A stretch of DNA of 64,000 nt. Origin: Eutreptiella sp. 'Long Island Sound 2002' (lineage: Eukaryota; Euglenozoa; Euglenophyceae; Eutreptiales; Eutreptiaceae). Position 1 is the first letter of the stretch. Each line of letters opens with the position of its first letter. Below the pieces are notes generated by a model that saw nothing but the letters and a program-made list of their open reading frames with translations, had not been told where the DNA came from and searched no databases. Below are positions 9,501 through 60,130 of the stretch, one piece after another. Position numbers and translations under genes: made by a program. The stretch is taken from positions 145,588,961 through 145,652,960 of the forward strand of contig OZ038382.1 in the NCBI GenBank assembly GCA_964036045.1, given 5' to 3'.

Positions 9501-10639
9501 TGACCAGTGGCAGTCGCCGACATCGCCGATCTTTGTTTGGGCCTGTCCAACTCAGCCCCTAGCTAGAGTGGACGAAAATTAGATTTGAGACCACCAATGT
9601 GAATGGTTTCAAAATCCAAATACTGCTGTCAAATCGCCTTTTCGCAAAATTGCACGATTCACTGTTCTGCAACACCGATCGTCGATTTGCGTGATCGGAG
9701 TGTTGAACGCCGAGGTTTTGACTAAATATTCGTGTTCAGCATCAAAAACTACCCAGATTTAGCTTTCGGTTTATCAAAATTCAAGCCGGTAGGCCAAAGA
9801 TATGACTTTTTCAAGTTTTGATACAGCCGGCTGAGTTTGGCCATTTTGGCCTGTTTTGTAGCGTAACCACGGGGCTCTAGCAACGAACCAAGTGACATTC
9901 CAACTCCATTTGGACCCAATTGATGTGAAAAGCATTAAGGTTGACCCCTCTAGCCTCTTCTTGATGCTTAGAACGAGGGTACAAAAGTTGGAAAAGGTGG
10001 TACTAGAGTGAGTTCATATGTCTCTGCTTCCTACTCGACTACGTGCCGACAGGGACACATTTTAATGTGGCAGGGTATGCAAAACATACATCTAATTTTA
10101 CCTAAAAATGACCACCAAAGACGCCATTTTTGCAAGAAATGAGTGTGAGACGGCCTGTGACACGTCCTATTATCCTTTTAGGACTGGTCCTCAGCTTTCA
10201 AACGAGCCCAACAACCTCCGACGAATGGACCCGCGAACCCAAAATGGCCATTTTTGACCAAAATGCCAAACCCCCACCCGAGATATCTAAGGGCCATTGG
10301 GGTTACACTTGGCCAACAAGTGGCTATTCCTATCCTTCTAGGTCCAAACTACTCAAGTATACTTGGTTGAAGTCCAATGGAAGCATAGGGATGCAACCGG
10401 AACACCAAGGGGGAGGCCCATGATTTTGGCAGGCCGGTGTTGTGACGACACCTAAAAACACAGCTTAAAAAGATTCTATCTTTGAGTTTTCGCCCCGATG
10501 TGCTCTCCATAGAGGCCATAGGGACGTACCATTGCTTATCCCCGTCCCATGGGACCCATCCAGGACTAGCGCACACAAAGGTTCAATCCCTAGGCCGGGA
10601 TATAGCGCGTTGACAAAGCTGTACCATGGATTGATAGCC
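9501..10639. other. Unassigned; contains one half of a diverged repeat pair
   Basis: The part from about 10,128 to 10,400 matches 11,370-11,650: both carry TCCT..TATCCTTTTAGGA, CAGCTTTCAAACGAGCC, CACCTCCGACRAATGGA and ACTTGGTTGA in order. The rest (9,501-10,127 and 10,401-10,639) shows nothing I recognise. Confidence 0.4.
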
Positions 10640-10925
10640 TTTGGGCGAACTCAAGGCAACATTCAGTACTGCTCTGAAAGTGCTGCAGTGCAGCAAAACA
10701 ATCATGAGCTATGACCGGTCACAGTGCGTCTTGTTAGCTTTGTCTATTTGCGCGCTTGGAGGTGCCTAACGGAAAAGGTGTTGGGTTTGGGTCAACGAGG
10801 GGGGGTGCCCCCCCCCCCTTCGGAGGGAGGTGCCCCCCCCCCCCCCCCTACAGCCCCCCAAACTGTCACACACCCCTCGGGGTCACACATTGGCTGGAGG
10901 CGGCCCCCGTGCTCGTTCATGAGGT
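10640..10925 (+). repeat. Dispersed repeat R, copy 1 (with C-run hairpin)
   Basis: This sequence is present in inverted orientation at 18,725-19,015. Shared blocks include GGCGAACTCAAGGCAACATT, GAAAGTGCTGCAGTGCAGCA, TTTGGGTCAAC, the C-run/TTCGGAGG/C-run segment, and CCCCTCGGGGTCACACATTG. The homology covers about 290 bp. The internal poly-C runs differ in length between copies. Confidence 0.75.
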
Positions 10926-11787
10926 GTACCTAATGCTATCAAATGACACTTTGCTGCATGAATGAATTTCAGCGCACATCACATTCTATTATCACAACAA
11001 CAATATTGTGCCGTACAAACAACATCAATACATGCTACTATAGCTACTCACAATGTCTCCTTTTACCTCTTTGCGATCCACGAAAAAAAACAAAGTACAG
11101 CAGAAAAACATATCAAACAAGATTAGTTCATCCATCTTACATAAACAAGAGCAAAGACAATAAAAAAAAAGAGAAGAAAATAAAGCATAACCCAATTGAT
11201 GCCATTAGCTTTGTGACGAGGCTTGGGAAGGACTCGCTACGCTCCCCAAGCCTAGAAACGCCGAAAGTGTCAGAAGTGCCAACAGGTACACGTTTGAATA
11301 CGCCATGTTCTGAATTCAGCATGTCTAACTTTAGCTAAAAATGATGGCTAAAAACTTGATTTTCACGGAAAATGGGTGCAAGCTCGCCTATGACGGGTCC
11401 TCATATCCTTTTAGGATATGTCTCCAGCTTTCAAACGAGCCAAACGGTTCGTTCCAACTCAACGGTATGTTGGAGAACCACCTCCGACAAATGGAAGCAT
11501 GAACTCAAAATTGCCACTTTTGACAAAATTGCAAAACTCCCAACGCTTATAACTTAGGGCCAACGGGGCTTCAACGGGCAAACAACTGACCTTTTGCGTT
11601 CTTCTAAGTCCGAAGAACTCCAATATGCTTGGTTGAGGGCTATCAAATGTCTCTTAGGCTGCCTTGGGTCAGCTCTCTCTCCCCCCATGTGGAACCCGAT
11701 TACCGACGAATGGTCGGTGCAGTGCTCTTCGTAACCGTGCATGCAAAACGGGTTATGCCGGTATCCATTGGCCCATGAATAGTGTCC
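10926..11787. repeat. Dispersed repeats sharing homology with 24.6-24.9 kb and 10.1 kb
   Basis: From about 10,985 to 11,265 the sequence matches the reverse complement of 24,620-24,910. Shared landmarks are CGTACAAACAACATCAATAC, ATACATGCTACTA, ATGCCATTAG and GCTTGGGAAGGACTCGCTA followed by the inverted CCAAGC. The last of these forms a hairpin. From 11,370 to 11,650 it matches 10,128-10,400. No gene is visible. Confidence 0.5.
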
Positions 11788-11849
11788 CTTCCCCGTGTCA
11801 CAAACCACAGACATATATATAGAGAAGCAAAGGGAGGGGAGGGGCCTCA

Positions 11850-11997
11850 AGCATCGGAATCATCCTCCCACTCGTGCCCTCTTGCTGGTACTCTTGGGGC
11901 GAGCACGCTTCTTTGGCCGGGCTGCTTGCGATCTTGCTGCCGGCCCAGGAGACATGGATTCCGATGGCACATAGTCACTAGTGCCTAACAGGGCACT
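11850..11997 (-). pseudogene. 3' half of a gene-B copy, cut by the TIR element
   Basis: The minus strand here encodes the C-terminal part of the protein found whole at 19,132-19,737: GTSDYVPSESMS, then a Pro/Ala stretch, then RPKKRARPKST. The homology begins exactly at the outer edge of the left terminal inverted repeat (11,998), in the codons after the Ser tract. A 5-nt deletion near the end (GGCACGAGTGG here, GGCACGCGACGAGTGG in the whole copy) shifts the frame. The 3' flank from 11,788 (TCACAAACCACAGACATATA) also matches the flank of the whole copy at 19,035. Its missing 5' half lies at 20,712-21,137. Confidence 0.8.
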
Positions 11998-12485
11998 CCC
12001 TTGGTACGCGTTTGAAACCCAATGTTGTTCCCGACTAGAATATTCCCAATGGGAACAATTCCCGCCGGAACAATCTCGTTGGGAACACCACTGGAACAAG
12101 TGTCGCAGGCCAGATAACCAGATCCATCACCATGAGTTTCCAAGTTCGTAAATGATGTTTTTTGTCTCTTTCTTGCATGTATAACGCGTCCAAGGCTTGT
12201 CTTTCCCATCGGGGCCATGTTGACATATTGTGAGCCGTTGGTGCCACCTTCCACTAGGTGTACACATTTCGAACTTTTCGTATCCATTTGCAAGCCTGCT
12301 ATTTCTTGTAGTTCAGACGCAGCGTTGTATGACTTTTCAACGTTGGCGTCCCCATTCTCCCGTTTGATTTGTGCATTGTGGCCATGCCCAGGGTCCCATT
12401 TTGGTATTTGTTCCTTGCCTGAATGCTCGGTGGGTCTATAGGCATCTTCCCCTAGAGGTATGCATTGCCAAATTTCGTAGTTCAT
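11985..12485 (-). CDS. Unknown ORF at the left end of the TIR element
   Basis: An ATG at 12,485 opens 166 codons on the minus strand beginning MNYEIWQCIPLGEDAYRPTE, with mixed, soluble-protein-like composition for about 130 residues (KWDPGHGHNAQIKREN, MAPMGKTSLGRVIHARKRQ). The last ~30 codons run through the GGAACA-rich subterminal repeats and out through the inverted repeat into flanking DNA, so the true 3' end, or an intron, must lie earlier. It is divergent from, and nearly overlaps, the start of the plus-strand transposase-like gene. In the related left end at 58.9 kb the frame is not preserved because of a 1-nt indel, so it may not be coding. I recognise no family. Confidence 0.3.
   Translation of the reverse strand: MNYEIWQCIPLGEDAYRPTEHSGKEQIPKWDPGHGHNAQIKRENGDANVEKSYNAASELQEIAGLQMDTKSSKCVHLVEGGTNGSQYVNMAPMGKTSLGRVIHARKRQKTSFTNLETHGDGSGYLACDTCSSGVPNEIVPAGIVPIGNILVGNNIGFQTRTKGVPC
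11998..12110 (+). repeat. Left terminal inverted repeat and GGAACA-rich subterminal region
   Basis: The TIR (11,998-12,031) is followed by alternating TTCCC and GGGAAC motifs: AATGGGAACAATTCCCGCCG, GGAACAATCTCG, GGGAACACCACTGGAACAAG. Homology with 58,833-59,030 continues through this block and beyond. Repeated subterminal motifs of this type often serve as transposase-binding sites; for this element that is inference. Confidence 0.7.
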
Positions 12486-14370
12486 TGTTGTAGCTTCATC
12501 AAGCCTAGATCGCAAACCCGCGTTGCGCAACTAACCACCCACCTCGTCCATTTGGCTAGTGCTGTTAGCCTCCGGGACGGGGATCTTGTTGGGGAGCTCA
12601 TAGCGGAATGGGCCATCTCCTCTCCACACGCCCGCCGCCAATTTGCGGTGGCCGTGCGCTTGGCCCAACCAAGCTGTGTACGAGAGATACAGCAGGGGGC
12701 AATCGCCAAGTACCCCTCCGAGGTGCTCCCCCCGGATGAGTGTTGCGAGCTCATCCTCAACCTGCGTGCGCCCAAATCCGCTTGGCGCACGCTCTCGGAA
12801 GTGTACACCCTCCGGGGGCTGAAGGACACCGCGACCACGGGCCTTCCATTCGCCCGTCCGATTTGCCCTGAGAGGGCTTTCCAGCAGCGCTGGCAAGATC
12901 CACTGGCCCCCTTGGAGCTGGCCCCCGCGGTGAGCACTTCGGATCCCAAGGCCACGGGCATCAGTTGGCCGTGGGCATCATGGCTGCGCTACATTGCTAG
13001 CCAACCCCCGTTGTGCCGCATGATCGATTGGTCGTTCCCCCCGACTTTCATTGTCAGGGGGGATGGCTACCCCTGCGCAGGCGGGGAGTGGTCCCAATTG
13101 TCTGTGTCCATCGCCAACATGGGCCTTTGGGGACGAATTCCCGCCTGCGTGTGGGTCATCGGCCTCGCAATCTGCGGGGACAAAGCGATGGCGACCCTAG
13201 CAACCCTTTGGGAAGACAATATTAAGGTGTGCCGCGCACACACCGTGTTGTTCCGGCGACGTTCCGATCACTTGTTCCGGCGACGTTCCGGCGACGTTCA
13301 AGTGTTTCGTTGGAACCGCCACCGGAACAATCTGGTTCCAACAAAATTGATGTTTTCTTCTTAGGCCATCCAGGAGGTCGTGGACACCCACCGGGTGGTC
13401 TTCAATTCCCATGAGGAAGCGGCCGATGCCTGGCTCGGTGGTGATTCCCCGTGGGTGCGCCGCATTATCGGGATCACACCGGCCCCACAAGTGGGGTCAC
13501 TATACAACGAGGGGATTTGGGACTCCGACGCCGCTGTGTGGCGGGGCAAGGACGTGGTCCGGACCACCGAGTCGGACCACGCACAGCGGACGTCCTTCTT
13601 AATGGGAACACCATCGCTGAAGGCCGCAGGTTGTTCCGTGGAACCAGTGGTGGTCATTGCCCGGTGCCGCGTTGTCATGTGCATTCTGCACTGTTGCATG
13701 GCGATGGGCCGGTTGCAAATGACCAACATTGAGCGGTTGGCGGCAGAGCGGCTAGCCGGGGGCGATGAGGTGTCCCGTGCGGCGATTCAGGCGGTATTGC
13801 ATGAGCATCGCACTGGGTGCCGCCTAGGCAAGGATTGTTCCCCGGATGGTGAGGAGACGTCGCGCCTGTTTGCGGCTTGGCCCGATGTTGCATTGTTGCT
13901 GTCGGTTGGGCCGGAGGAGCCCCTCTATAGGGCTGTGATGGGGATGGCGAAGCTTTTGAAGGACCTGTACCACACCTATCAGGTGGGTACGCGTCCCCAA
14001 TGCCGGGCAGCGGCAGCTGCCTTCCGGGAGCATTGTGCTCCTAGGTCCGCATCCCATTACCTCCTGTTCCTGGAGGAGGATGCGGATCGCGTATTGGACG
14101 ACATTTGGCCGTTTGGATTGGCAATGTTCTCCAATGACATTGTCGAAAGCCTTAACCGCTTCCTGAAGCAGGCTTTCAACGAACACAGTGGCCGGGGTGG
14201 TGGCCGGCAAACGGCTACTGGGACCGCCAGCTGCGGTCGCTCGCAGGCATCCATTGATTCGGACGCCGACGCCCTGCGGCAAGTGTTGCAATGGGTTTTC
14301 TTGTACTTTCACATTCATCTCCACCAACATGATGCTGTTCGACATGTGCCTTGTGTTCCCAGGGCTGCAC
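12465..14370 (+). CDS. Transposase-like protein gene of the TIR element (two exons)
   Basis: Exon 1 is 12,465-13,226. The 138-bp intron 13,227-13,364 (AAG|GTGTGC ... TTCTTCTTAG|GCC) is phase 0. Exon 2 continues AIQEVVDTHRVVFNSHEEAA. Features visible: IVRGDGYPCAGGEWSQLSVS followed by IPACVWVIGLAICGDKAMA around residues 200-245, and near the end SNDIVESLNRFLKQAFNEHS with GRGGG and a Trp/Phe-rich helix (VLQWVFLYFHIHL). An Asp in a strand followed by an SLAN-type strand, and a late ND.VE.LNRFLK helix, are how several DDE transposases are laid out, so I read it as a divergent transposase. That is inference; no named family is recognised. The start may lie on an upstream exon, since TTCATTGTTGTAG at 12,493 looks like a 3' splice site. 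The 3' end is uncertain because the frame stays open into a G-rich repeat. Confidence 0.5.
13227..13364 (+). other. Hairpin-bearing intron (introner-like) in the transposase-like gene
   Basis: This is a 138-bp GT-AG intron with a pyrimidine-rich end (TTTTCTTCTTAG). It carries TTGTTCCGGCGACGTTCC twice plus a further GGCGACGTTC copy, then a partial inverted copy (GGAACCGCCACCGGAACAAT). Its length is a multiple of three and its only stop is the TAG of the splice site, so the frame reads through it. Removing it joins NIK to AIQEVV in phase 0. Confidence 0.7.
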
Positions 14371-14433
14371 TAGAGACCACCCCCTCTGCACCACCCCCGT
14401 TCCTCAGCTCTCTTCTTTCTTCTGCTCCTATCC

Positions 14434-17400
14434 ATGGCCGCGCCCGTCAGCGCAGATATGATGCAAATGATGTTGGCGCTTCTGAAGGCCACCAAGAATA
14501 TTCAGGTTTGCGGGTTTGGGCTTGGGTGGGGGTTTGGGCTTGGGTTTGGGCTTGGGCCTGGGTGTGGGTTTGGGCTTGGGCCTGGGTGTGGGTTTGGGCT
14601 TGGGTGTGGGTTTGGGCTTGGGTTTGGGCTAGGGGTTGGGTGTGGGTTCGGGTGCGGGTTTTGGTTTGGGCCTAGGTTTGGGTTTGGGTTTGGGTGTATG
14701 CTTTGGCGCGCTTTGCACGCAGTGGAAATCAGTGCGTTGGGTTTGTGTGTCCCTGCTTGCCCTGCTCCCCCCGCTCCCCCCTGTGTCCCTTTTGCTCTTT
14801 GCTCTTTAGGAGTTTGATGATTTGTTGTTGAGGGGAAGGGGAAAACCCAAGAACCCCCAGTGATTATTTGTGCCCCATGCCCATAAAGGGGCTAGGAATC
14901 TTTGTTGTTGAGGGGAAGGGGAAAACCCAAGAACCCCCAGCGATTATTCGTGCCCCATGCCCATAAAGGGGCTAGGAATCTTTGTTGTTCACGGGAAGGG
15001 GAAAACCCAAGAACCCCCAGTGATTATTCGTGCCCCATGCCCATAAAGGGGCTAGGAATCTTTGTTGTTCAGGGGAAGGGGAAAACCCAAGAACCCCCAG
15101 TGATTGTTCGTGCCCCATGCCCATAAAGGGGCTAGGAATCTTTGTTGTTGAGGGGAAGGGGAAAACCCAAGAACCCCCAGTGATTGTTCGTGCCCCATGC
15201 CCATAAAGGGGCTAGGATTCTTTGTAGTGGATGCCCCCCCCCCCCCACGGGGCCGTAGTGCACGCAGTGCGCTCTGTGCGCGCGCGGAACTGTGCCTATT
15301 TTCCACTGTTCCGGCGACGTTCCAACAACCTGTTCCGGCGACGTTCTGGCGACGTTCCAGCGGCCACTGGAACGTCGCCAGAACGTCGCCGGAACAGGTT
15401 GTTGGAACGTCGCCGGAACAAGGTGTCTGGGTAGGGTTGGCCTCTCTCTGGCATCCTTGTCTGCAGAACGGGATGACCGAGACCGAGGCCCTGGGGGCAG
15501 CACTGGCTGCACCACCCCCGCCAGCCCCACTGGGGGCACAGGGGGCCACGCGCTCCGAGCCACGCAGTAGCTCTGCGCTGGCTTCGCCAGCCCCGCCCAC
15601 CTCAGGGCGCTCCCAAACATCCTCCGTGGGCAACCCCCGCTCACCGGCCACTGGAGCCGCCACGGCCTGCCCCACAAGGGGCCGCGCCAGTCGCGCCTCT
15701 CCAAGCGCATCGCCCCCAGTTGCCCGAGCCCTCGATTGGGAGCTCAATGATTAACGTGGGGGGGGGGGGGGTTCGGGAGCACGCCGTGGTTCTGGGGGAG
15801 CTGCAAGAGGCGAGGGGCAATGTTGAAAGCTTCCGCCGCCGGGTGAAAAAATGGTCTGCGAAATTGGCGGAGTGCCGGCGGCGTGGGGACATCACCGGGG
15901 GGGGGCACGCGGGCGAGAGGGTTCTCGAGGGGAACCGGCGGGTAAGGGAGGCGCAGAAGGCGGTGGAGGTGCTTGAAAAGGAGTTGCAGGGCATGGGTGG
16001 GGGGGCGCAGGTGAAAAAGGAAGGGGGTGTCAACGACGATGACATTGTGGAGCTGGGTGAGGTGGTGGTGGATGAGAAGGATGAAGAGCGGAGGGCTAAC
16101 CCGGGGGTTAAGAGAGAGGAAGAAGAGGGGGGGGGGGAGGGGGATGGGGATGGGGAGGGGGATGGGGATGGGGAGCGGGAGGGGGATGACGCCGGCGGCG
16201 TCTTGCGCATTACGGATTGGATGCGCAACCGACTTGGCTCATCCATGGCAGCAAAAGCTGCCAATTTTCCCTGGACAAGGGAGATGGTAGGCCCCAACCC
16301 CCCCCCCCCCCCTGGACGCCTGTGTCCTACGAGCCCCCCACCCCACCATTTACACGCTCCGTTGGCTACTGCAGCGCATCCTGCACAAGCAACTGCACTG
16401 CAAGGAGCAGCGTGATTGCCGCTGGCGCCGGGAGGAGGGGTCCGCGCCAGGGGGGGTCCCGGTGTCTTGGGTGACCGGGCCGGGGACAGGGCGCACGGCA
16501 CCCCTCCCCAACGACTGGCTCCCCAGCAAGGCGCAGGGGGGCAAATTTCTAACCGCGGGCTCTGTCAGTGCGGGGAGTTGCAATTGGCACCTCATTTTTG
16601 AGCGTTGGGCCGACCACAGCCTTGGCGAGGTGAGGGCGACTCCCCGCAAGGACACCGTCCTCTTTCGGGCCAATTGGACCCGAATCCTCCGCGACGGCAT
16701 CTATGTGGTCGAGGACGAAGGCAAATACCATGGCTTCGTCGTTGGCCAAACGCTGTCGCGGCCTGGCGCCCTACGCGTCAAGTGCGAGGACGACGCGCAG
16801 CGGCACCAACAATCTGCCGTTCGGGCAGTGCTAGCGGAACGTGAGCGCACGCCGACCTCGCAATTGCGGCAAGCGTTGGCGGCGATCAAGGAGAACGTGG
16901 ACACGCGCGTGCGGGTATGCCCCCCCGCAAGCATGTCCACATGGCCAATAGGGCCCAAAAATGCACATGGTTGGCGTGCCGGTGCATTGTTCCGGCGACG
17001 TTCCAAACAGTTTGTTCTGGCGACGTTCCAATCTGTCACCAAAAAACGTTTGAAAAGTCTTTTGAACGTCGCCGGAACAGCTTATTGGAACGTCGCTGAA
17101 ACACTCATCCTGGCTATCCTCCATGTAGGTGGAGGACATCCAGGTCAACCCTTCGGACCCGCGCGCCGTTCGGGTGATCCTTCGTTGGCCAGGAAGCGAT
17201 CCCCGGCCCATCTATTTGGGTACGTTGCTTCAGCAGTTGCACTTGCAGCCCGTCGCCGTGCTAGAGTTCCTCACGGCCATGATGGACTACGTGGCGGCCC
17301 GCGGCAGCGTTCTCGCGACGCGCATCGAGGGGTGGGGTAGCATTGGCGACATGTCCCCAGCGCCGCCGCACTGCCAACAAGTGACCGCAGAGGCCCCCCC

Positions 17401-18391
17401 CCCGCCCGCGTGTGCACCGCATGTGCAACCCCAACCCCCGAACCCCCCCCCAGCCCCCCAAACAGCACCCAAACCCAAACCCAAACCCCAACGCCCCCCC
17501 AAGCGGGAACCCAAGAGCGCCCCCAAACCAGCCCCCCAAAAAAGGAAGAGGCTCCCGGGGGAGTCCTCCAGCGAGGAGTCGTCCAGCGACTCCTCAACGG
17601 ACTCCTCCTCGGGGTCCACCTCCGACTCCTCGGCGTTCAAGGAGCCCCAGCCCCGCCCCCCGGCCAAGGAGCCCACTAAACCCCCTCGCAAGGCTCCCAA
17701 GAGAGCCGCGCCCCCCCAACCCAAGGCCCAGCCCCCCCAACCCCAACCCAAGGCCAAGCCAAAGGCAAGAGGGGGGGGGGGGTGCAAATACAAAGCGGGG
17801 GAGCAAGTGTATGTAGTTTTTCGGGACAATGGGCAGTGGGGGATCGAGCAGGGCAAAGAGGCCCTTGCCGCGGGTGGCCCCCCCGGGGTTGGGGAGACGT
17901 GGATCGCCTTCCGCAAAGACCCCGAACTCTTCGCCATCCCGAGAGCGTCGGTTTGGAAAACCAAGACGCAGGCGAAGAAGTTCCTCGCCAAGATGATGGC
18001 GGCCGAGGAGGAGGACAAGGAGGACGACGCGGACGCGGACGAGGAGGGGGACGAGAGCAACGACGGGGACGGGGACGGGGGAGACGAAGGGGATGGACCG
18101 GGGGCAGGTTTGGGTGCTACCGGGGCTAACCGGGATGGGGGCGTCGGGGAAGAGGTCGAAGGGGTGGAGGGGGAAAGGATGGAGGTCGAAGGGGTGGAGG
18201 GTGAAGGGGTGGTGGGAGAAGGGGTGGTGGGAGAAGGGGTGGAGGGTGAAGGGGTGGTGGGTGAAGGGGTGGAGGGTGAAGGGGTGGTGGGTGAAGGGGT
18301 GGTGGTCGGTGAGGGAGATGGGGGGGATAGTGGGGCGGGTGACAAGAGTTCGGGGGCGCCGGCCGGGCCCCCGACCACGCAGGACTTTTAG
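14434..18391 (+). CDS. Large Pro/Lys-rich protein with acidic repeat tail (multi-exon, TIR element)
   Basis: Proposed exons: 14,434-14,505 (MAAPVSADMMQMMLALLKAT KNIQ), 15,467-about 15,625, about 15,720-16,286, 16,375-16,914 and 17,129-18,391; every junction I can test is phase 0. The order along the protein is a Pro/Ala-rich N-part, a coiled coil (VLGELQEARGNVESFRRRVK), an acidic Gly/Asp/Glu stretch, a globular part with WHLIFERWADHSLGEV and IYVVEDEGKYHGFVVGQTL, a Pro/Lys-rich linker with a Ser/Asp tract, a second globular part (YKAGEQVYVVFRDNGQWGIE), and an acidic tail ending in about ten EGVEGEGVVGEG-type repeats. The 15.6-15.7 kb junction is the weakest. The role is unknown. Its position just after the transposase-like gene and inside the TIRs suggests an accessory function. 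Confidence 0.5.
14508..14700 (+). repeat. GGGTTTGGGCTTGGG G-rich minisatellite
   Basis: About 190 bp consisting almost only of TTTGGG, CTTGGG and GTGGG units on the plus strand, a potential G-quadruplex former in the transcript. It resembles telomere repeats in composition but is irregular and internal. Confidence 0.85.
14821..15220 (+). repeat. Five tandem 80-bp units
   Basis: The unit begins TTTGTTGTTGAGGGGAAGGG and contains CCCATGCCCATAAAGGGGCT. Successive units start at 14,821, 14,901, 14,981, 15,061 and 15,141 and differ at only a few bases, so the amplification is recent. Confidence 0.95.
15307..15420. repeat. Perfect 54-bp inverted repeat with 6-nt loop
   Basis: The left arm 15,307-15,360 (TGTTCCGGCGACGTTCCAAC ... 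GACGTTCCAG) and right arm 15,367-15,420 are exact reverse complements; the loop is CGGCCA. Each arm contains GTTCCGGCGACGTTCC or close variants three times. This is the clearest copy of the hairpin unit found also in the introns at 13,227 and 16,915 and, partially, at 18,493. Confidence 0.95.
16287..16374 (+). other. Probable 88-bp intron in the large TIR-element gene
   Basis: GAGATG|GTAGGC opens it and GGCTACTGCAG|CGCATC closes it; both borders are phase 0 and together they correct the frame change between 15,720-16,286 and 16,375-16,914. An alternative is that the C14 run at about 16,299 is miscounted and the exon is continuous. Confidence 0.45.
16915..17128 (+). other. Hairpin-bearing intron (introner-like), 214 bp
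   Basis: CGCGTGCGG|GTATGC opens the intron and CTCCATGTAG|GTGGAGGAC closes it, phase 0. From 16,984 to 17,105 it contains TTGTTCCGGCGACGTTCC and TTCTGGCGACGTTCC, then the inverted GAACGTCGCCGGAACA and GGAACGTCGCTGAAACA: an imperfect version of the 15,307 hairpin. Confidence 0.7.
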
Positions 18392-18724
18392 GTGAGAACA
18401 AGAGACTAACCCGATGGGCCCCCGGGGGCACCCTACACAACAATGTATGTTACCATTTTACCCTTCCTTGTGCTTTGCTCTTGTTGTAGAGTGCTTGTTC
18501 CGGCGACGTTCAAATAACTTGTTCCAGCGGTGTTCCAATGGTGTTCTAACAAAAACTGTTTTTGAAAACAAGTTTTTTTCACGTGGCAACGCGCCGGGCA
18601 ACAAATATGAGCATACCAGCGGGGACCCCCAAGGCTAGCAAACAACATATTTTGCCACCATGTACGGGTAGGCTTGGTTGGGGGGTAAATAAATTTTGAA
18701 CTTTTTTTGTTCCGGCCAGATAGC
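18392..18724. other. 3' region of the large gene with a partial hairpin unit
   Basis: GTGAGAACAAG right after the stop and TTGCTCTTGTTGTAG at 18,489 could mark an intron in the 3' UTR. It is followed by a decayed hairpin unit (TTGTTCCGGCGACGTTC, TTGTTCCAGCGGTGTTCC). No coding sequence seen. Confidence 0.35.
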
Positions 18725-19015
18725 CTAGAACACTGGAACAATCACGGGGGCGGCCGCCAGCCAATGTGTGACCCCGAGGGGTGTTCGACAGTTTGGGGGG
18801 CTGTAGGGGGGGGGGGGGGACCCCCACCCCCCTCCGAAGGGGGGGGGGGGGGACCCCTCCCCCCCCCTTGGTTGACCCAAACCAAGCACCTTTTCCGGCA
18901 GGCCCCGTCCAAGCGCGCAAACACACAAAGCTAACAAGATGCACTGTGAATGGTCATTGTTTTGCTGCACTGCAGCACTTTCAGAGTAGTATTGAATGTT
19001 GCCTTGAGTTCGCCC
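18725..19015 (-). repeat. Dispersed repeat R, copy 2 (inverted relative to 10.6 kb)
   Basis: Read on the minus strand it follows 10,640-10,925 block by block, including the C-run/TTCGGAGG/C-run core. It ends directly against the conserved 3' flank of gene B (TCACAAACCACAGACATATA at 19,036). Confidence 0.75.
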
Positions 19016-19090
19016 AAAGGCCTTTCCTTCCCCTTGTCACAAACCACAGACATATATGTAGAGAAGCGAAGGGAGCCACAGACATATAGA

Positions 19091-19112
19091 GAGAGAGAGA
19101 GAGAGAGAGAAG
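19091..19112. repeat. (GA)n microsatellite
   Basis: About eleven uninterrupted GA units in the 3' flank of gene B; absent from the flank of the 11.8-kb copy. Confidence 0.9.
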
Positions 19113-19131
19113 CGAAGGGAGGGGAGGGGCC

Positions 19132-19737
19132 TCAAGCTTCGGAATCATCCTCCCACTCGTCGCGTGCCCTCTTGCCGGTACTCTTGGGGCGAGCACGCTT
19201 CTTTGGCCGGGCTCCTTGTGCTCTTGTGACCCGGCAGGCCGCCGGCCCATCAGACATGGATTCCGATGGCACATAATCACTAGTGCCTGACGGGGCACTA
19301 CTGCTGGAGGATGCACTCGTACCGGAGGAGGCATTGGTGGACGAGCTGCTGCTACTACTACTGCTACTGCTACTACTACCTTGGTTTGGCCCAGAGAGAA
19401 GAGCAGGGAGAACAGTGGGCAGAGCCGGCGGCGCAGCAGGCTTCGCCTTCGGTGGCAATGGGGCCCGGAAATTGTCAAAGGCTTGCAACACCTTTGTTTT
19501 CTCCTCTTCGCTGCACCCGGCATAGTCATGGGACACACCAGGGTGCGCTTGTGCCATGTGGTGTGGCATGGCGTAGGTGCAATGCCATTTTCGGCAATCA
19601 AGCACCTTGCAGCGAACTGGCAAGTTGGTGCTAGGGTTCATCGCTGTTGGGGTTGCCGCGCTGTGTAGCCGTAGCCGATGGTACGCAAGACTGCAATTGC
19701 TGTCAATTTTCTTGCCGTGCACACTTGCAGTTAACAT
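19132..19737 (-). CDS. Gene B: Ser-rich protein with a Cys/His finger, whole copy
   Basis: The minus-strand frame from the ATG at 19,737 gives 201 residues. The N-part holds VRCKVLDCRKWHCTYAMPHH followed by MAQAHPG, i.e. C-x4-C-x4-C ... HH-x4-H, a possible zinc site. Then come an acidic helix (GCSEEEKTKVLQAF), a Pro/Ala linker, a long Ser tract encoded by TCC/AGC/AGT triplets, the segment GTSDYVPSESMS, and a basic Lys/Arg tail (ARPKKRARPKST) with an acidic end. A nuclear DNA-binding role is plausible from the basic tail and finger, but this is inference. Two further copies at 20,712-21,137 and 11,850-11,997 are defective. A 105-bp tandem array begins within the first codons, so the true 5' end may be lost or replaced. 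Confidence 0.55.
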   Translation of the reverse strand: MLTASVHGKKIDSNCSLAYHRLRLHSAATPTAMNPSTNLPVRCKVLDCRKWHCTYAMPHHMAQAHPGVSHDYAGCSEEEKTKVLQAFDNFRAPLPPKAKPAAPPALPTVLPALLSGPNQGSSSSSSSSSSSSSTNASSGTSASSSSSAPSGTSDYVPSESMSDGPAACRVTRAQGARPKKRARPKSTGKRARDEWEDDSEA

Positions 19738-20200
19738 GTCTGGGTCAAACAAACAAGTGGAACACCCCACATTTCACATTGTGGGTGGCAGCATCCCGCG
19801 CCAGGGGCCCCTTGTCCGCGGGCTGACGTTTGCAGTTAACATGTCTGGGTCAAACAAACAAGTGGAACACCCCACATTTCACATTGTGGGTGGCAGCATC
19901 CCGCGCCAGGGGCCCCTTGTCCGCGGGCTGACGTTTGCAGTTAACATGTCTGGGTCAAACAAACAAGTGGAACACCCCACATTTCACATTGTGGGTGGCA
20001 GCATCCCGCGCCAGGGGCCCCTTGTCCGCGGGCTGACGTTTGCAGTTAACATGTCTGGGTCAAACAAACAAGTGGAACACCCCACATTTCACATTGTGGG
20101 TGGCAGCATCCCGCGCCAGGGGCCCCTTGTCCGCGGGCTGACGTTTGCAGTTAACATGTCTGGGTCAAACAAACAAGTGGAACACCCCACATTTCACACG
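19731..20200 (+). repeat. 105-bp tandem repeat, about 4.5 copies
   Basis: TTAACATGTCTGGGTCAAAC recurs at 19,731, 19,836, 19,941, 20,046 and 20,151 with the copies essentially identical. The unit is 35 codons long and has no stop in one plus-strand frame, which makes a long but probably meaningless open frame. Confidence 0.95.
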
Positions 20201-20423
20201 GGGGGCAAAATCAGAAGTGGCCCACAAAGTGGGCAAATTGGCTACCTCACCCCTGCCGTATCGGGGAGCCCCACCGCTGCAGAGCGGGGGGCAAAATCAG
20301 AAGTGGCCCACAAAGTGGGCAAATTGGCTACCTCACCCCTGCCGTATCGGGGAGCCCCTCCGCTTCAAAGCGGGGGACTAAATCAGAAGTGGCCCACAAA
20401 GTGGGCAAGGTGGCTACATAACC
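20197..20423 (+). repeat. 85-bp satellite, short array (variant units)
   Basis: There are about 2.7 units with GGGGACTAAATCAGAAGTGG, CCCACAAAGTGGGCAA and GGCTACCTCA/GGCTACATAA. The same family forms the larger array at 21,127. Confidence 0.85.
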
Positions 20424-20711
20424 TTTTTTGTGCTTTTCAGCCATTTTTGAATTCTCCACAAAATTCTGAGTATTTTGAGGATAGACACATAGGGTGGAAC
20501 AAGAAAAATTCCCCCTGCCGTATGCCTAAAACAAAATCTCCGGCGCCTCCGGCGCCGACAAAGCACCTTGTTCCGTGCGACAATTTTGGGGTCCGTAGAG
20601 GGGGGGGGGGGTCCCCCCCCCCCCCCCTTTGGGGTCGGGTCCTGACCAGGGGCGGCCCCCGTGGGAACAATTTGGCTGGAACAACATTGGGTTTCAAACG
20701 CGCACCAAGGG
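20424..20711. repeat. Right end of the TIR element
   Basis: Unassigned AT-rich DNA (20,424-20,560) leads into CCGGCGCCTCCGGCGCC, a G12/C14 hairpin (20,598-20,627), GGGAACAATTTGGCTGGAAC and the right TIR ending at 20,711 (GCGCACCAAGGG). The outer boundary is placed where gene-B homology begins. Confidence 0.65.
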
Positions 20712-21137
20712 CTACTGCTGGAGGATGCACTCGTACTGGAGGAGGCATTGGTGGAGCTACTGCTACTACTACCACTACTACTACTACTACCCTGGTTTGG
20801 CCCAGAGAGAAGAGCAGGGAGAACAGCTCGGTGGCAATGGGCCGGGGAAATTGTCAAAGGCTTGCAACACCTTTGTTTTCTCCTCTTCGCTGCACCCGGC
20901 TTAGTCATGGGACACACTAGGGTGCGCTTATACCATGTGGTGTGGCATGGTGTAGGTGCAATGCCATTTTCGGCAATCAAGCACCTTGCAGCGAACCGGC
21001 AAGTTGGTGCTAGGGTTCATCGCTGTTGGGGTTGCCGCGCTGTTTAGCCGTAGCCGATGGTACGTGAGACTGCAATTGCTGCAATTGCTGTCAATTTTCT
21101 TGCCGTGCACACTTGTGCTGCACTTGCCATCTGCCAC
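20712..21137 (-). pseudogene. 5' half of a gene-B copy, cut by the TIR element
   Basis: This encodes the N-terminal part of gene B (SVHGKKIDSNC, RCKVLDCRKWHCTYTMPHH) and ends in the Ser tract, exactly where the right TIR starts. In the aligned frame two codons have become stops (the Gln after HHM/V and the Tyr of HDY), and a segment between the acidic helix and the Ser tract is deleted. It is in the same orientation as the 3' half at 11,850-11,997 and correctly placed upstream of it, so both look like one gene interrupted by the 8.7-kb insertion. Confidence 0.8.
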
Positions 21138-30135: not shown

Positions 30136-33100
30136 CCAAATGCTTCTGCCGTTGTGCTGCAGTATCAGCATTTACCACCTCAATCCAGCGTTTGAAGTCA
30201 TCCTGTGTCATAGACAATGCCTTGATCGTGGCTTGCAATCCACCCGAAAGATCCTTGATGATTGCTTTCGTATCAGCACCCTGTGTCCTGCACAAAAATT
30301 GTGAATCAATTGGCGAGGAGATGTGCTGATGGCATTGTGTCGTACTCCGCAGGCATCCGATTGTGTGGACCTCTTTTTTTTTTTAAGTGCCCAGACATGG
30401 TAAGAACCCCTCAATGTACGTAAGCCCTGTGCCTAGAATTAGGGATTGTCTCTTGAACCATAGACTGCATGCCGGCGAGGCATGTCTCGCTATCAATGAG
30501 CCGAGATGTCCCAGGGGGCACAGACTCGATAAAGCAGTGTGCACACTGTGCAGGGGTGTGTAGTCCTGCTACGACCAGAGGTCCACACCAACATAATGTA
30601 GTATGGCCGACAATGTCCGACAAGAAAACAAAATTCCAACAGGATTGTCGGGACATTTTCATCAGATATCAGAGGCAGGGGACAGCAATTCTGCCACCAA
30701 AAGATGCAGCACCACCAGGCGATTCAGACACTGTGCATACTTGATGCCTGACTGCAGCTGAGCCCTGAGATTCTTTTCACTGTGCTCTAATCGGTTGACG
30801 TGCGCTTGCAGCTGTTCAATGAGTTCACTTTGGTTTTTGAGCTGCGTCGCCTGTTGTGAACAGGGGGAGGTCAAGCAGTGGGTGACAGAACCCAATGCAA
30901 GTGCGCATCTTGGGTCGGTCCTCCGTGGCAGTTGCACTTTGATAATGCAGAAGGTTAAGCCCCTAGCACTGTCTCTTTTTGGAAGATCCATTGCCACAAA
31001 AACCCACAGCCGAGAGAGGTCGTGGTTCTGGGATCTGATGCATGGGAGTGCAGCGCAGGCGCTGGTGGGCGATTTTGCAGGTATCACTGGAGACCAGTGT
31101 GTTGGGGTCGGCCTGGGTGAATCCAAGCGGTCCCGGCCAGTACTATCGCCCAGACAGGCGACACAGAAAGCGTGCTTGTACCTCAGGGGACCTGGTTTCC
31201 TGCTTGTGAGGCTTCCATGTATGCGATCTTCTTTTACTTTTGCTTCGGCGTGGCAGCTCTTACATGCGACTGTGGAACCGCCTTTGCTGGGTGCACCGCC
31301 ACACCTGCACAAATCCATGCTGCGACAAAATCGTGTTTACAGACGGCTCTTCCAGGACGTGGGACCAGGCGGAGTTTGGGGGTCTTTGCGATGAAGGCTC
31401 TGTCCAAAACTTGCTCCCCCGGTACCAGCACACGAATGGCAATCAAATAACAGGGCAGAGCTTAGGGTGGTTGTACTGGCAGTTGAAGGCGGGCATTCCT
31501 TTGGCAGCAGTCACGGATACGAAAATTGTGCAAACAGCGGCCATTGAGTTGGGAAAAGAAAATATTGCGGGGTCATCAGGAACCAGTGGCACATTCAGAT
31601 TCGTGGAGGCGCAAATTATTGAAGCAGATGCGCCTGCACGCTAACCGTTGCACGGACACAACGTCGCATTCAGTTTGCGGGAGCTACATGAGATAGAATG
31701 CACCAACTTTCTACTACCCGCCATGTGCCCGTTTTCCCTTCAGGGGTGAGTGGACGCTCAGCATGAGCATTATCATGCCGCCAGCGCCCAGTAGACTGGG
31801 GCCGCCATGTTCAGCCGGCGGGAGTGGGTGCTATTTTGGGACCCGACAGCGGCTGGACGATCCCGAGTGTACCTTTGAGAGAACACAGCCGTGGCGATGG
31901 GGGAGATAAAGAAGCAGATTAGTGCCAATTGGGTGCTGGATGGTTGGTTCTGATGGTGCTGGTTCTGGTCGTGGTTTGAATCTGCAATCGTCGCCATGCC
32001 CACAATCCGCAGCAAGTCGCTGTCGGAGCCATCGTAATGCCTGCTTGCTGCTACCTGATGACCATGCCCATGCATCCCAGCATCCACTCTGGAAGCCCTG
32101 TGCGTCCGCCTGCCCGGCAAAGTTGCCTTAATGCTGTTCGGTGACTGACCCGTGGTGACGGGGGTCAAACAAAGCGCCTTTTTTTTCCCCCATGAACAAA
32201 GCCTGCTTATCAGATTGCAACGAGGAGCGGGCACCTGAATTTCACATTTGTTGTCGAGACGGTCCACTTCTGCGTTGAGGCCCTGAATCGTCTGCTCTTG
32301 GTTGCCAACCTTTGAGCGAAGCTGTGAACCCTTCTCCGTGGGGTTCAGGAGCATCTCAGACAAATGATGCAGCAAACCCTGAAAAGCAGGGGTCGGCGTC
32401 TGGAGGTCGCAATCCCAGGAACAACAGCGAAGCAGGCAGGAGCAAGGCACGGCAGACGGTACAGTTCACCCGTGCCGGGCTCCCAACCATTCCACACCAA
32501 TCCTCACATCAAAGGCATACAAATCCCTCCCACGCTGTCACTGGTGCTTCCACCTCACCATATCCATCTACTGCCTTCGGTTCCCAATGCGCCGAGGACC
32601 CCTCCTCTGAATGCTCCCATGCAGAGTGTTCCTCCTCACAGCACCAATGACCGGAAGAGCCCGCTGGCTCCTGAGCAGCTCCCCGTGGGTTTGCGTGCAA
32701 CTGCAACAAGAATCTTCCTCCAGTTGACGCTCTGTTTCAGAAATTTCCGAGGAATAACTTCGGAAAATTCTATTGCCTGTGGCAAGTCCACCTCGCTGAG
32801 AATCTACCCCAGGCAACACACACCCAAAATAGGGGAAAAACTATATAAATACGGGCGAAAAACATTCTTTAGATACCTTGGATGGTCATTTTAGGTGATC
32901 ACAATAGCAAAAAAATATGTTTCGAAAACTTCGATTTTTGAGCTATCCAAGGTGAAAAACTACATTAGCAGGTTGTGTACCAATCCCTTGGGAGGACCCC
33001 CCCCTCCAGTACCAAAATACCCAAATAAGATGAAAAACACGTAAATACTGCCTAAAACATGCTTTACATACCTTGGATGGTCATTTTAGGAGATCACAGT

Positions 33101-36100
33101 AGCAAAAAAAAATAAGTTTCGAAAACTTCGATTTTTGAGTTGTCCACGGTGAAAACTTGGATTAGCAAGTTGTGTACCAATCCTTTGGGATACCCCCCCC
33201 CCCCCCGCAACAAATACCCACATAAGGTGAAAAACACGTAAATACTCCCTAAAACATGCTTTACATACCTTGGATGGTCATTTTAGGTGATCACAATATC
33301 AAAAAAATAAGTTTCAAAAACTTTGATTTTGGAGCTGTCTATGGTGAAAAACTGCATTAGCAGGTTGTGTACGAGCTGTCTAGTGTGAAAAACTGCATTA
33401 GCAGGTTGTGTACCAATCCCTTGGGAGCCCCCCCCCCCCCCCCCGCGCAACCAATTGCATAATGGAGTGGAAAACACGTAAATACTGCCTAAAACACGCT
33501 TCACATACCCTGGATAGTCACATGATCACATGATCACAATATCAAAAAAATAAGTTTCAAAGGCTTCGATTTTTGAGCTGTCCAAGGTGAAAAACTGGAT
33601 CACCAAGTTGTGTACCAATCCCTTCAGCCCTTGGGAGAACCCCCCTCCCCCCGCGTGCGACCAATCCCGAACGAAGGTGAAAAACACGTAAATACTGCCT
33701 AAAACATGCTTCACATACCCTGGATAGTCCTTTTAGGTGATCACAATATCAAAAATATAAGTTTCGAAAACTTCGATTTTTGAGCTGTCCAAGGTGAAAA
33801 ACTGGATCAGCAAGTTGTGTACCAATCCTTTGGGAGACCCCCCCCCTTGCCTCTGCGCGCAACCAATACCGAAATAAGGTGAAAAACACGTAAATACTCC
33901 CTAAAACATGCTTTACATACCTTGGATGGTCTTTTTAGGTGATCACAATATCAAAACAATAAGTTTCGAAAACTTTGATTTTGGAGCTGTCTATGGTGAA
34001 AAACTGCACTAGCAGGTGGTGTACCAATCCCTTGGGAGACCCCCCCGCTATGGGATACAAATGCGTGTGCATGACCGGCACTGTTCAGAACAAAGCAGGA
34101 GTGCAAAGCAAAAGTCGAAGAAAGAAGCTCTTCACTGACATGTCACACACGCCTTTTGCTGCATTAGAAATGAGCATGGAGATTGTGAAACAAGTCCACT
34201 GCACCTAAGTCCTATGAACTGATTCTAGTTGAATAACCCCCCCCACACCCCCCCGCACCAAATACCCACATAAGGTGAAAAACACGGAAATACTGCGTAA
34301 AACATGCTTCACAGTATCAAAAAAATAAGTTTCCAAAAACTTCAATTTTTGAGCTATCCAAGGTGAAAAACTACATTAGCAGGTTGTGTACCAATCCCTT
34401 GGGAGACCCCCCCCCCCCGGCACCAAATTCCCACATAAGGTGAAAAACACGTAAATATTGCCTAAAACATGCTTTACATAAACCCCCGCCCCAAAAATAG
34501 GAACCGGTTCTTATTTTTGACCCAGTTGGTGGCGGTAGCAGGGGGGGTTCTTATTTTTGGGGGCGGTTCCTACTGCGTTTGACACCTCCTCCTGACTTCA
34601 GAAAAAATGGACATTTTTGATGGCTTTGATGGCTTTGATACACTTTTGTTCCAATGTCTGAGGTGGAGCAGCATGTTCAGCAAATGGTAGCTGCAAGGGC
34701 TCAGGCAGTGCCTGAACCTGATCCTGCCTGCAACCTGCCACCAGCAAAGCGCCAAGCTACCATCACTTCGTATTTCCGCAAGTAACTGATGCACAAAAAA
34801 CTCTTCAGTGTTCCCCGCTTTTGTCTTGCTTGTGTCCAAGGTGGTTCTTATTTTCGACCCGCTCGGTGGAAAGCCCCAGGCGGTTCTTATTTTTGGGGCG
34901 GTTCTTAGTTTGGGGCCAGTTCTTATTTTTGGGGCAGGGGTTTACTTTGGATGGTTATTTTAGGCGATCACAATATCAAAAACATAAGTTTGGACAACTT
35001 CGATTTTTGAGGTGTCTAGGGTGAAAAGCTGCATCAGCAGGTTGTGTACCAATCCCTTGGGAGACACCCCCCCCTCCCCCCCGCACCAAATACCCACATA
35101 AGGTGAAAAACACGTAAATGCTGCCGAAAACATGCTTTACATATCTTAGATGGTGCTTTTAGGTGATCAGACTAGCAAAAAAATAAGTTTCAAAAACTTC
35201 AATTTTTGAGGTGTCCAGGGTGAAAACTGCAGTAGCAGGTTGTGTACCAATCCCTTGGGAGACCCCCCCCCCCCCCTCCCCGACACCAAATACCCACATA
35301 AGGAGAAAAACACATAAATATTGCCTAAAACCTGCTTTGTATACCTTGGATGGTCATCTTAGGTGATCACAATATCAAAAAAAAAGTTTCCAAAACTTTG
35401 ATTTTTGAGTTGTCCACGGTGAAAAACTGCATTAGCAGCTGTGTACCAATCCCTTGGGAGCCCCCCCCCCCCCCCCCTCCCCGACACCAAATACCCACAT
35501 AAGGTGAAAAACACATAAATACTGCCTAAAACATGCTTTACATACCTTGGATGGTCATTTTAGGTGATCACAATATAAAAAAATAAGTTTCGAAAACTTC
35601 AATTTTGGGCTGTCCGAGGTGAAAAACTGCATCAGCAGGTTGTGTACCAATCCCTTGGGAACCCCCCCCCCCCCCCCGCACCAAATACCCAAATAAGGTG
35701 AAAAACACATAAATACTGCCTAAAACATGCTTTACATACCTTGGATGGTTAATTTAGGAGATCACAATAGCAAAAAAATATGTTTCGAAGGCTTCGATTT
35801 TTGAGGTGTCCAAGGTGAAAAACTGCATTAGCAGGTTGTGTACCAATCCCTTGGGAGAACCCCCCCTCCACCGCGCCACCAATGCAGAAATAAGGTGAAA
35901 ACCACATAAATGCTGCCTAAAACATGCTTTACATACCTTGGATGGTCATTTTAGGTGATCACAATATCAAAAAAATAAGTTTCGATAACTTCAACTTTCG
36001 ACCTGTCCAAGGTGAAAAACTGCCCCCCCCCCTCCCCAAAAAAGTGATATCCAGTTTCAGGGGATAGAGGCCGCAGAATCAAAAATCCATTGGTGTATTG

Positions 36101-38095: not shown

Positions 38096-39784
38096 CTAAA
38101 ACCTTGCAGCTTCTCTGAGACCCCGCGTTGCACCGCCGCAACCCCTGCAGACCTTTGTTGGTGGCTTCGGCCCCTCTGCTTGAGGCTTCGGCTTCGGTGC
38201 AGGCGCTGTGGCACTGGAGGTGGGAGCGTCTGCTGGTGCTGGCTGGGACGGCGCCGCGGGTGCCGTACCAGCCGCAACGACGTGGAGCATCTTTGACGCA
38301 GGGGGCGCTGGGCGTGGCTCGTCGAAACTCATTGCGGCAACAGTGGAATCTGACGGCGGGCAGCTGACGATCACGTTCGCGATACCCCCGTGCGTCTGCA
38401 CCTTGCAGCTGCTGATGGCCTTAGAGGGATCATTGGGCGGGACGAAAAGGGGCTGTGCAGTTGTATGTTTTACGACAAGGGCCACCGCACGCAGCACAGC
38501 CTCCCACCAGATCAGCGTGCTCAGGGGCGGCCGTTCGATGTCGCCTGGCACGTCCTCGCACCGCAAGATAGGGAAAGGATATCTGCCCTCTGTGTTCAAC
38601 CAGCCATAGCGCTCGAAATCGTCCGCGTCGTCGAATGGGATGTTGCTGAGCTCTTGGAAGACGAGCGAGTGGATCACATTCTGCGCCCCCTCCTCACCTG
38701 GGCGGAACACGGCGAGACCGAACACGCCGCGTTCGTTCCGGGTCACACGGATGACGTTCAACTGGTCGCTCAAGCCGACGACTCTGACTCCGATGGGCAA
38801 CGGAATGTAAAGATGTGTCCGGTTGGAATAGAAAAGATCAGCGGCGTCCATGAAATACTTCAGGAAATCAGGGGTCACGTTCTTGATGCCAAGCAATCCA
38901 ACCTGCTTCCGTTGCTTGAGGACACCGGCAAACTTGTTGTTGTTTTTCCATTGCTCCCTCTCCTTCTCGTCGAACTTGCTCACTGTGTCACGGAGGAGCT
39001 TCTGTTTGTCTGCGGTGAACGGCACGGCACGTGTTTCGATTTCCAACTTCAGGAGGTGTGGCTGCAGCATCGTATAGAGCCTTGCGTCCGAAACCTCGAG
39101 CACACTGGGGCGTATGCTATGATTGGAACAGGTCTTGGCCAGGAAATCCAGGACTTCATCAACCACAATGGAAGTGCGGGTAGAGTGAGGCGCCATTCCC
39201 AGCATCTGCAGCCTCGTCGAGTCAAAAATGAACAAGGAGCGGGGCCGGAAGGGGGCAAAGGGCGGGTCAGCCAACCAGATGCGGTCGTGCAACACCTCAA
39301 GGTGCCATCGCACGTCGGGAAGCTTCGGCAGCTCACCCGCCTGCATACTTCCTTGGATCGCAGTGGCGTTTGCGATTTGTGAATCATAGGGCTCAGAATC
39401 GCTGTGCTTCTGGGCCGCAATGACGTCCTCCAGACCTTTTTGCATCAGGTCGCTCGCTGGCTCCAGCGCGAGACCCCGTTGATAGGCCTCGATTGCATCG
39501 CCATATTGCCTCAGGTTATGCAGTGCCAGGGCTTTTCGCGAATACCCTTTGGGCCAGTTGGGCTTCAATTTCACGACGGTCTCGGCATCCTCCAAAGCTC
39601 GGGTATAATCCTCCAGCATACAGTATGAAGCGGACCGGTTCGAGTACAAGACATGTGCCCCTTCCGCATCCTTGTTCAACGACAGCGCTGTGCTGAAGAA
39701 AAATATAGCGTGTCGGAAGTCACCGGCTTGGTGAGCGGCGTTGCCCCGTTGCTTGAATTCCACGACCTGGGCCGCTTCTGCCAT
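38096..39784 (-). CDS. TPR-repeat protein with a large unassigned C-terminal domain
   Basis: Single open frame of 562 codons on the minus strand. I chose ATG at 39,784 (MAEAAQVVEFKQRGNAAHQA); the frame extends four codons further but only to a GTG. Three TPR motifs lie at about residues 5-110: GNAAHQAGDFRHAIFFFSTA, YSNRSASYCMLEDYTRALED and YSRKALALHNLRQYGDAIEA. This is the Hop/TTC-type set, which usually binds a C-terminal peptide of a partner such as Hsp70/Hsp90. Residues about 150-500 form a globular region (DRIWLADPPFAPFRPRSLF, KQVGLLGIKNVTPDFLKYFM, VFGLAVFRPGEEGAQNVI) that I cannot name. A Pro/Ala/Lys linker and CRGCGG follow. AAAG|GTCTGC near 38,140 could be a 5' splice site, so the last ~15 residues may be intron. 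Confidence 0.8.
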   Translation of the reverse strand: MAEAAQVVEFKQRGNAAHQAGDFRHAIFFFSTALSLNKDAEGAHVLYSNRSASYCMLEDYTRALEDAETVVKLKPNWPKGYSRKALALHNLRQYGDAIEAYQRGLALEPASDLMQKGLEDVIAAQKHSDSEPYDSQIANATAIQGSMQAGELPKLPDVRWHLEVLHDRIWLADPPFAPFRPRSLFIFDSTRLQMLGMAPHSTRTSIVVDEVLDFLAKTCSNHSIRPSVLEVSDARLYTMLQPHLLKLEIETRAVPFTADKQKLLRDTVSKFDEKEREQWKNNNKFAGVLKQRKQVGLLGIKNVTPDFLKYFMDAADLFYSNRTHLYIPLPIGVRVVGLSDQLNVIRVTRNERGVFGLAVFRPGEEGAQNVIHSLVFQELSNIPFDDADDFERYGWLNTEGRYPFPILRCEDVPGDIERPPLSTLIWWEAVLRAVALVVKHTTAQPLFVPPNDPSKAISSCKVQTHGGIANVIVSCPPSDSTVAAMSFDEPRPAPPASKMLHVVAAGTAPAAPSQPAPADAPTSSATAPAPKPKPQAEGPKPPTKVCRGCGGATRGLREAARF

Positions 39785-42224: not shown

Positions 42225-42307
42225 GGCAGGATGGTCGAGCGGTCTAAGACGGCAGCTTCAGGTGCTGTTCTCCTCTGGGGGCGTGGGTTCGAATCCCACT
42301 CCTGTCA
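42225..42307 (+). tRNA. tRNA-Leu (anticodon CAG)
   Basis: Acceptor GGCAGGA pairs with TCCTGTC (one G-U). The D arm is GTC-GAGCGGTCTAA-GAC. The anticodon stem is GCAGC/GCTGT with loop TTCAGGT, anticodon CAG at 42,259-42,261. There is a long class II variable arm (TCTCCTCTGGGGGC), and the T arm is GTGGG-TTCGAAT-CCCAC. Discriminator A at 42,307. No intron and no encoded CCA. ACATTTTAG about 20 nt downstream gives a TTTT Pol III stop. This is an intact, ordinary eukaryotic tRNA gene. Confidence 0.95.
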
Positions 42308-59790: not shown

Positions 59791-60130
59791 TATTGCACCT
59801 GGAAATGGAGACTGCAACAAACGGGTAAACCCCCCCCCTCAGAATACCAGAAATGTACCACCCCCACAGGAGGGGCGGCGGGGTGGTGTTCGGACACCCT
59901 CCCACCCAAAATCACCGCGCACCAGTTGTTAGATCAAAGCCAAGCAAGCGTATATAGGGGAAAACGCCACATACCCCCGCCCCCCATTATTTTGTCCAAT
60001 AAACGTATGCCCCGATGAGTTTTTGGTCCGGACCCCCCCCCAGACCCCCCCCCACTTGAAACCCACTTTTTTGGAGCTTTTGAGGGAGGTGGGGGGGGTG
60101 TCGAAAAAATGACCCCCCCTTTTTTGGGTC
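59791..60130. other. Unassigned, G/C-run rich
   Basis: Several C-runs (C10 at 60,037) and CCCCCCCACTTGAAACCCAC with the inverse GGTGGGGGGG nearby. No gene. Confidence 0.35.

Follow-up and report, generated by a model that had tools for sequence, protein, structure and literature searches.

The 64,000-nucleotide stretch of DNA analysed here (the window) comes from Eutreptiella sp. 'Long Island Sound 2002' (assembly GCA_964036045.1, contig OZ038382.1, positions 145,588,961 to 145,652,960) and is set in a genome of 2.28 Gb. Between positions 11998 and 20711 it carries a DNA transposon, here called the host element, which sits in an old remnant of a second, unrelated transposon and has a short copy of that same transposon nested within it. 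According to the reading to which we assign a probability of about 0.8, the host element, coding for an acidic protein and for a DDE transposase with a RAG1-like predicted core, landed in the remnant and was later invaded by the nested copy. The ends, the target duplications, the family of copies, the nesting and the conserved coding of exon 2 of the transposase gene can be read directly from the genome. We take the family to be a new lineage, plausibly of superfamily rank, beside CACTA and Transib.

Ends, target duplications and copies of the host element

The host element is bounded by terminal inverted repeats (TIRs) of 34 bp, CCCTTGGTACGCGTTTGAAACCCAATGTTGTTCC at 11998..12031 on the plus strand and its counterpart at 20678..20711 on the minus strand. 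Allowing up to 3 mismatches, these are the only two matches to the 34-mer in the window, shuffled sequences predicting none, and no third site was found. CT is present on both sides (11996..11997 and 20712..20713), and was recognized as a 2-bp target duplication by comparing the flanks with an unbroken copy of the Ser-rich frame interrupted by the element. The left flank ends in GGGCACT, the right flank, which starts with CTACTGCTGG, continues beyond CT as ACTGCTGGAGG, and both fit the unbroken copy at 19292, which reads GGGCACTACTGCTGG. Since the joined flanks match this copy, the insertion duplicated CT (AG on the other strand). Inverted repeats at both edges, a Ser-rich frame broken into collinear halves, an unbroken copy inside and 85-bp satellites had all been claimed in the original prediction, and all are found, the satellites at 85/86 bp. 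A transposon bounded by TIRs and flanked by a target duplication had also been rightly recognized, not so its extent of 8.7 kb: the host element, presumably of the cut-and-paste type, measures about 6.8 kb, the rest being the nested transposon.

A 27-base end pattern, allowed up to 3 mismatches, matched the whole genome at 317 forward and 324 reverse sites (641 end matches), and the reversed pattern, used as control on the same genome, at none in either orientation. Pairing was tested on 98 of the 641 end matches. Neighbours at most 15 kb apart lie in +/- orientation 28 times, in -/+ orientation twice, so that the paired ends which the original prediction proposed to look for across the assembly do occur. 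Twenty of the 28 pairs were examined whole, the remaining 8 by their ends alone; the window copy brings the elements to 29. The length of the target duplication, also to be read from the flanks, is 2 bp: exact 2-bp duplications border 25 of 29 elements, 3-bp and 5-bp matches one each, 4-bp matches none, and of 812 mismatched flank pairs 103 coincide over 2 bp. TG is the commonest duplication (8/25), no dinucleotide is fixed, and the TA duplication of Tc1/mariner-type groups occurs once (1/25). The element L013, counted among those with duplications, has an altered right end; L015 and L016, two of the four elements without a 2-bp duplication, have common flanks, as one duplicated site. The host element would insert via a 2-bp staggered cut, without strict target, and belongs to a real, sizeable and recently amplified family.

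A second transposon inside and around the host element

The nested transposon (18743..20663) is a 1921-bp internal-deletion derivative, foreign to the host element, and sits 40 bp inside the right end of the latter. It has its own TIRs, CACGGGGGCSGCC, at 18743-18755 and 20651-20663, and is flanked by an 8-bp target duplication, GGAACAAT, at 18735..18742 and 20664..20671. A full copy of the second transposon (5855 bp, locus L043, 2852-8706) has an 8-bp duplication of its own, GGGGAGAG, TIRs reading CACGGGGGCCGCC, frames of 652 and 666 aa, and internal satellites of 105 and 86 bp. The nested copy corresponds to two parts of it, 99.5% and 99.7% identical, the middle being absent. What had been named gene B (19132..19737, minus strand) is the C-terminal part of the 666-aa frame and is preceded upstream by satellites of 105 and 86 bp (19725-20417); the tail of this frame, featuring Cys/His clusters and poly-Ser, is the Ser-rich frame. 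Neither the reading frames of the second transposon (Pfam, E below 0.1) nor gene B in a separate Pfam scan gave a match.

The original prediction had counted the unbroken Ser-rich gene as part of the machinery of the segment. It is instead the 3' part of a separate nested transposon, with its own TIRs and 8-bp duplication. A single composite transposon of 8.7 kb, including the Ser-rich gene, would accommodate the location of both parts between the outer inverted repeats, and was rejected as highly improbable. None of the 20 other host-element copies examined whole has the sequence 18743-20663 there: in all 20 alignments the match to the window reaches 18740-18742 and passes directly into the right end (right ends inspected in 18/20). 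The 1.9-kb part, moreover, is by its own inverted repeats, its 8-bp duplication and the alignment to L043 a deleted copy of another element, the protein of which gave 150 scored genomic matches, from 36375 first-look candidates.

The frame broken by the host element also belongs to the second transposon. An old copy of it provides the 3' half at 11787..11997 (minus strand), which was the target of the insertion, and the 5' part at 20712..21133 (minus strand), with satellites continuing to 22160; its terminal 275 bp lie at 10637..10911 (plus strand) and end in a TIR at 10899-10911 on the minus strand. This end piece is inverted relative to the gene piece at 11787-11997, and about 0.9 kb off, as after a small inversion. 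The outer copy is rearranged, carries an in-frame stop (read by eye), and is 86% identical to the full copy over the 5' part and 84-86% over the gene and end pieces, gaps included; compared with the inner copy, identity is 95% across 254 gap-free bases. It is no working gene. A host gene as insertion target was discarded, both the matches of the second-transposon protein and the alignment to the full copy identifying the target as a transposon remnant. The earlier idea of one element inserted into the gene of another copy is right as to the insertion, not as to a single family, the broken gene being an older remnant of the second transposon.

Host element and second transposon thus make up a mutual nesting of two unrelated families. 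The remnant of the second transposon was in place first, the host element then inserting into it. The short nested copy is probably the last arrival, because it is nearly identical to the full copy; alternatively, it could have been inside the host element already before this moved here. The region is rich in repeats and was judged from the assembly, and one could suspect that the split gene and the repeats were produced by faulty assembly. Two target duplications, unequal in length and each placed at the correct junctions, and the same ends facing each other in pairs at 28 other loci, make this scarcely credible.

Transposase gene and predicted fold

The transposase gene lies on the plus strand. 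An open stretch (12456..13226), with a provisional start, ends at a splice donor; a predicted GT-AG intron (13227..13364), carrying the motif array GTTCCGGCGACGTTCC at 13248-13330, separates it from the conserved part of exon 2 (13365..14372). The predicted catalytic triad comprises a first Asp (codon 13062-13064, in RGDGYP), a second Asp (13443-13445, in GGDSPW) and a Glu (14145-14147, in DIVESLN). The ratio of nonsynonymous to synonymous substitution rates (dN/dS) is 0.33 for exon 2 (15 copies) and 0.80 for exon 1 (20 copies), exon 2 being under purifying selection, exon 1 less so. This ratio for exon 2, along with the catalytic fold predicted in relatives, upholds the assignment of the 12.4-14.4 kb gene as a transposase.

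Sequence comparison offered no usable route to a known superfamily. The profile search against DDE families suggested beforehand gave no Pfam family for either of the two transposase pieces at E <= 1; among the six gene pieces scanned, the three other than transposase and gene B gave weak matches, below cut-off. When the 37 members of an alignment of relatives were scanned at E <= 5, at most five matched. Four families were hit, all weakly and each in 1-2 members, the lowest E being 0.033; an IS4 N-terminal model, with 0.098, was one of them, and no CACTA family was. The PDB, searched by sequence with the transposase, returned nothing usable. Searches for relatives, in which only candidates sharing most words were scored, gave overlapping sets of 19, 100 and 235 proteins; no Pfam domain and no informative name is attached to any of the 120 listed of the 235, and annotation pipelines therefore likely leave such genes as hypothetical proteins. 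None of 21 pattern matches in viral contigs was confirmed. No description of the family was found in the literature searched, which excluded subscription journals and Repbase.

AlphaFold models of two relatives, P0016 and P0001, display a RAG1/Transib-type DDE fold with a long helical insertion between the second Asp and the Glu. RAG1 is the best structure match for both models, a strong one for one of them; it leads the match lists, in which the absence of other families may carry no meaning. A library of viral structures gave no match at E <= 0.001. These models predict that the catalytic core of the transposase folds like that of RAG1 and Transib.

The zinc motifs C(2)C and H(3-4)H are not conserved. 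Their segment, from the second Asp to the last Glu, could be cut out in 17 of 43 alignment rows; C(2)C is found in 4 of the 17, at differing places, H(3-4)H in one. All 43 rows considered, a different set of ligand-type residues is conserved (Cys 40/43, Cys 40/43, His 42/43, Cys 41/43). Among filtered proteins the corresponding figures, in the numbering of exon 2 of the window, are Cys90 53/59, Cys106 59/60, His109 60/60 and Cys213 48/60; the filters, passed by 60 of 213 proteins, required [CYF]..H, DG-acidic and acidic-Ser motifs, and His109 and the Glu position were thus partly selected for. The Cys-Cys-His-Cys set may bind zinc.

The P0016 family

The transposases of the P0016 and window families are about 34% identical. 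P0016 matches the genome 87 times, 86 candidates having been scored; identity is 94-100% (100% at one place), and most matches are single frames of 506 aa. Dozens of such transposase frames, 96-100% identical, indicate that this family too was recently amplified. The P0016 element (7407 bp, C1:47901689-47909095) ends in CCCTAGTGACCCC...GGGGTCACTAGGG and codes for the transposase and four more long frames, one of them acidic, on the same strand. TG is duplicated in both copies in which the two ends were read. Of the 35 occurrences of its end motif, GTTCAAC, 30 lie outside the five long frames on the minus strand, which take up 5067 of 7407 bp. The two families share CCCT...AGGG ends and a 2-bp duplication, and each repeats an end motif of its own in the spaces between coding frames. 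The ends of the P0016 family start with CCCTA, close to a C-M-C-W-R end motif, a resemblance that would speak for kinship with CACTA.

Second gene and motif arrays

The second gene of the host element (15467..18391, plus strand) codes for a protein that is acidic and rich in repeats, and is divided into some three exons, the boundaries and the frame of the first exon being uncertain. dN/dS is 0.61 and 0.56 in the later exons, 1.25 at 15747-16286. The gene is present in full-length copies of the host element and hence belongs to it, as originally proposed. A predicted intron (16915-17128) carries a motif array at 16987-17103.

TTGTTCC/GGAACAA motifs form a left subterminal cluster at 12025..12099 (plus strand) and a cluster at 18495-18536 in the right subterminal region (18392..18742), and build a near-perfect palindrome of 57+57 nt (15307..15421). 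The space between the genes (14512..15225), also part of the host element, holds GGGTTT-like repeats (14512-14695) and an 80-bp tandem repeat in five units (14821-15225). In the host family 33 of 45 GGAAC sequences fall outside the drawn exons, which span 4444 of 6745 bp. These short motifs, set near the ends and repeated in introns and between genes, probably are binding sites for proteins of the element. The arrays may combine binding with a role in regulation; alternatively, they may be intron-making insertions, comparable to introners, the many near-identical insertions that serve as introns of host genes. The latter view, that the arrays in introns are introner-like insertions which created the introns rather than protein-binding sites, draws on the folding of the arrays of both predicted introns into motif hairpins, and on the unbroken 506-aa frame of P0016, which indicates that the transposase intron can be dispensed with. 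We regard it as unlikely, since arrays are found also at the ends and between genes, and each of the two families has its own motif (GGAACAA 16 in the window family vs. 2 in the relative, GTTCAAC 0 vs. 35).

Relationships to known transposon groups

PMC12730594 groups CACTA in one clade (CMCT) with Transib/RAG1, along with Mirage, Chapaev, Plavaka, ESTA and Lanisha, and describes the clade by C(2)C and H(3-4)H between the second Asp and the last Glu, 2-5 bp duplications and, in most cases, 5'-CA..TG-3' ends. The host family has the 2-bp duplication (25/29) and, in the models of relatives, the predicted RAG1/Transib-type fold. The 5'-CA..TG-3' ends are absent, the window family ending in CCCTTGG...CCAAGGG, its relative in CCCTAGTG...CACTAGGG. 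Mirage, Chapaev, Plavaka, ESTA and Lanisha, as described there (PMC12730594), have in common with the host family a DDE transposase and duplications of 2-5 bp, and differ from it in the conserved C(2)C and H(3-4)H and in the 5'-CA..TG-3' ends.

With Transib/RAG1 the family shares the predicted catalytic fold, including the long helical insertion between the second Asp and the Glu, without detectable sequence similarity and with a different pattern of zinc ligands. Transib elements have 5-bp duplications and CACWATG-type ends; in contrast, the host family duplicates 2 bp and ends in CCCTTGG or CCCTAGTG.

CACTA/EnSpm elements resemble the host family in the short target duplication, the two genes, the length of several kb and the clustered subterminal motifs, which are typical of CACTA. 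They differ in ends (CAC...GTG vs. CCC...GGG), in the motif arrays, which in the host family are found within introns as well, and in that no convincing Pfam transposase match was obtained; the comparison was made with published descriptions and Pfam scans. Full-length copies of the host element carry two genes, as CACTA elements carry transposase and ORF2, a likeness seen in gene number.

A very diverged CACTA/EnSpm element, its kinship hidden by drift, is a possible though doubtful identity for the host family. Subterminal repeats, short duplications and a pair of genes are CACTA traits; the accounts of CACTA in PMC6004678 and PMC4158355 agree with the 2-bp duplication and the two-gene plan, and CACTA falls in the same clade as Transib/RAG1 (PMC12730594). 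Against this kinship stand the CCC...GGG ends, the Pfam matches in at most five of 37 alignment members, all weak and none to CACTA, and the lack of conservation of the C(2)C and H(3-4)H of the clade. The original statement that the ends fit no superfamily holds for ends, zinc motifs and Pfam searches of the transposase pieces; it does not for the fold, which points to the RAG1/Transib side, nor for the 2-bp duplication, which is reported for CACTA in PMC6004678.

Two families at about one third identity that share ends, duplication length and arrays of their own motifs are as would be expected of a lineage ranking as a superfamily, placed either inside the CACTA-Transib-RAG1 group or next to it. 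More specifically, the lineage could be a new superfamily, sister to that group, in which the zinc C2-H2 is replaced by Cys-Cys-His-Cys, cuts are staggered by 2 bp at CCCT...AGGG, and end-motif arrays occupy introns and spacers; we hold the chances of this to be evenly balanced.

Other features of the window

A related satellite of about 200 bp forms three separate blocks in two orientations (32798-36059, 46325-47209 and 59410-61373), many units having poly-C or poly-G tracts. A direct repeat of 300 bp, 99% identical, is found 1.8 kb apart at 47886-48185 and 49661-49960. A frame of 562 aa (38099-39784) features tetratricopeptide repeats and a DUF6930 match near threshold, and a tRNA-Leu(CAG) gene (42225-42307) lies near a lipocalin-like frame (42770-43435).

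Implications

RAG1 is derived from a transposon, and the spread of its fold among transposases has been argued from few lineages. A family with a RAG1-like predicted fold but no detectable sequence kinship, differing also in its ends and probably in its metal site, would broaden this group. The host family could serve as a natural experiment on what determines the stagger of the cut (2 vs. 5 bp). If the proposed sister superfamily is real, transposase bound to the arrays could sense, or control, how its own transcript is expressed and processed.

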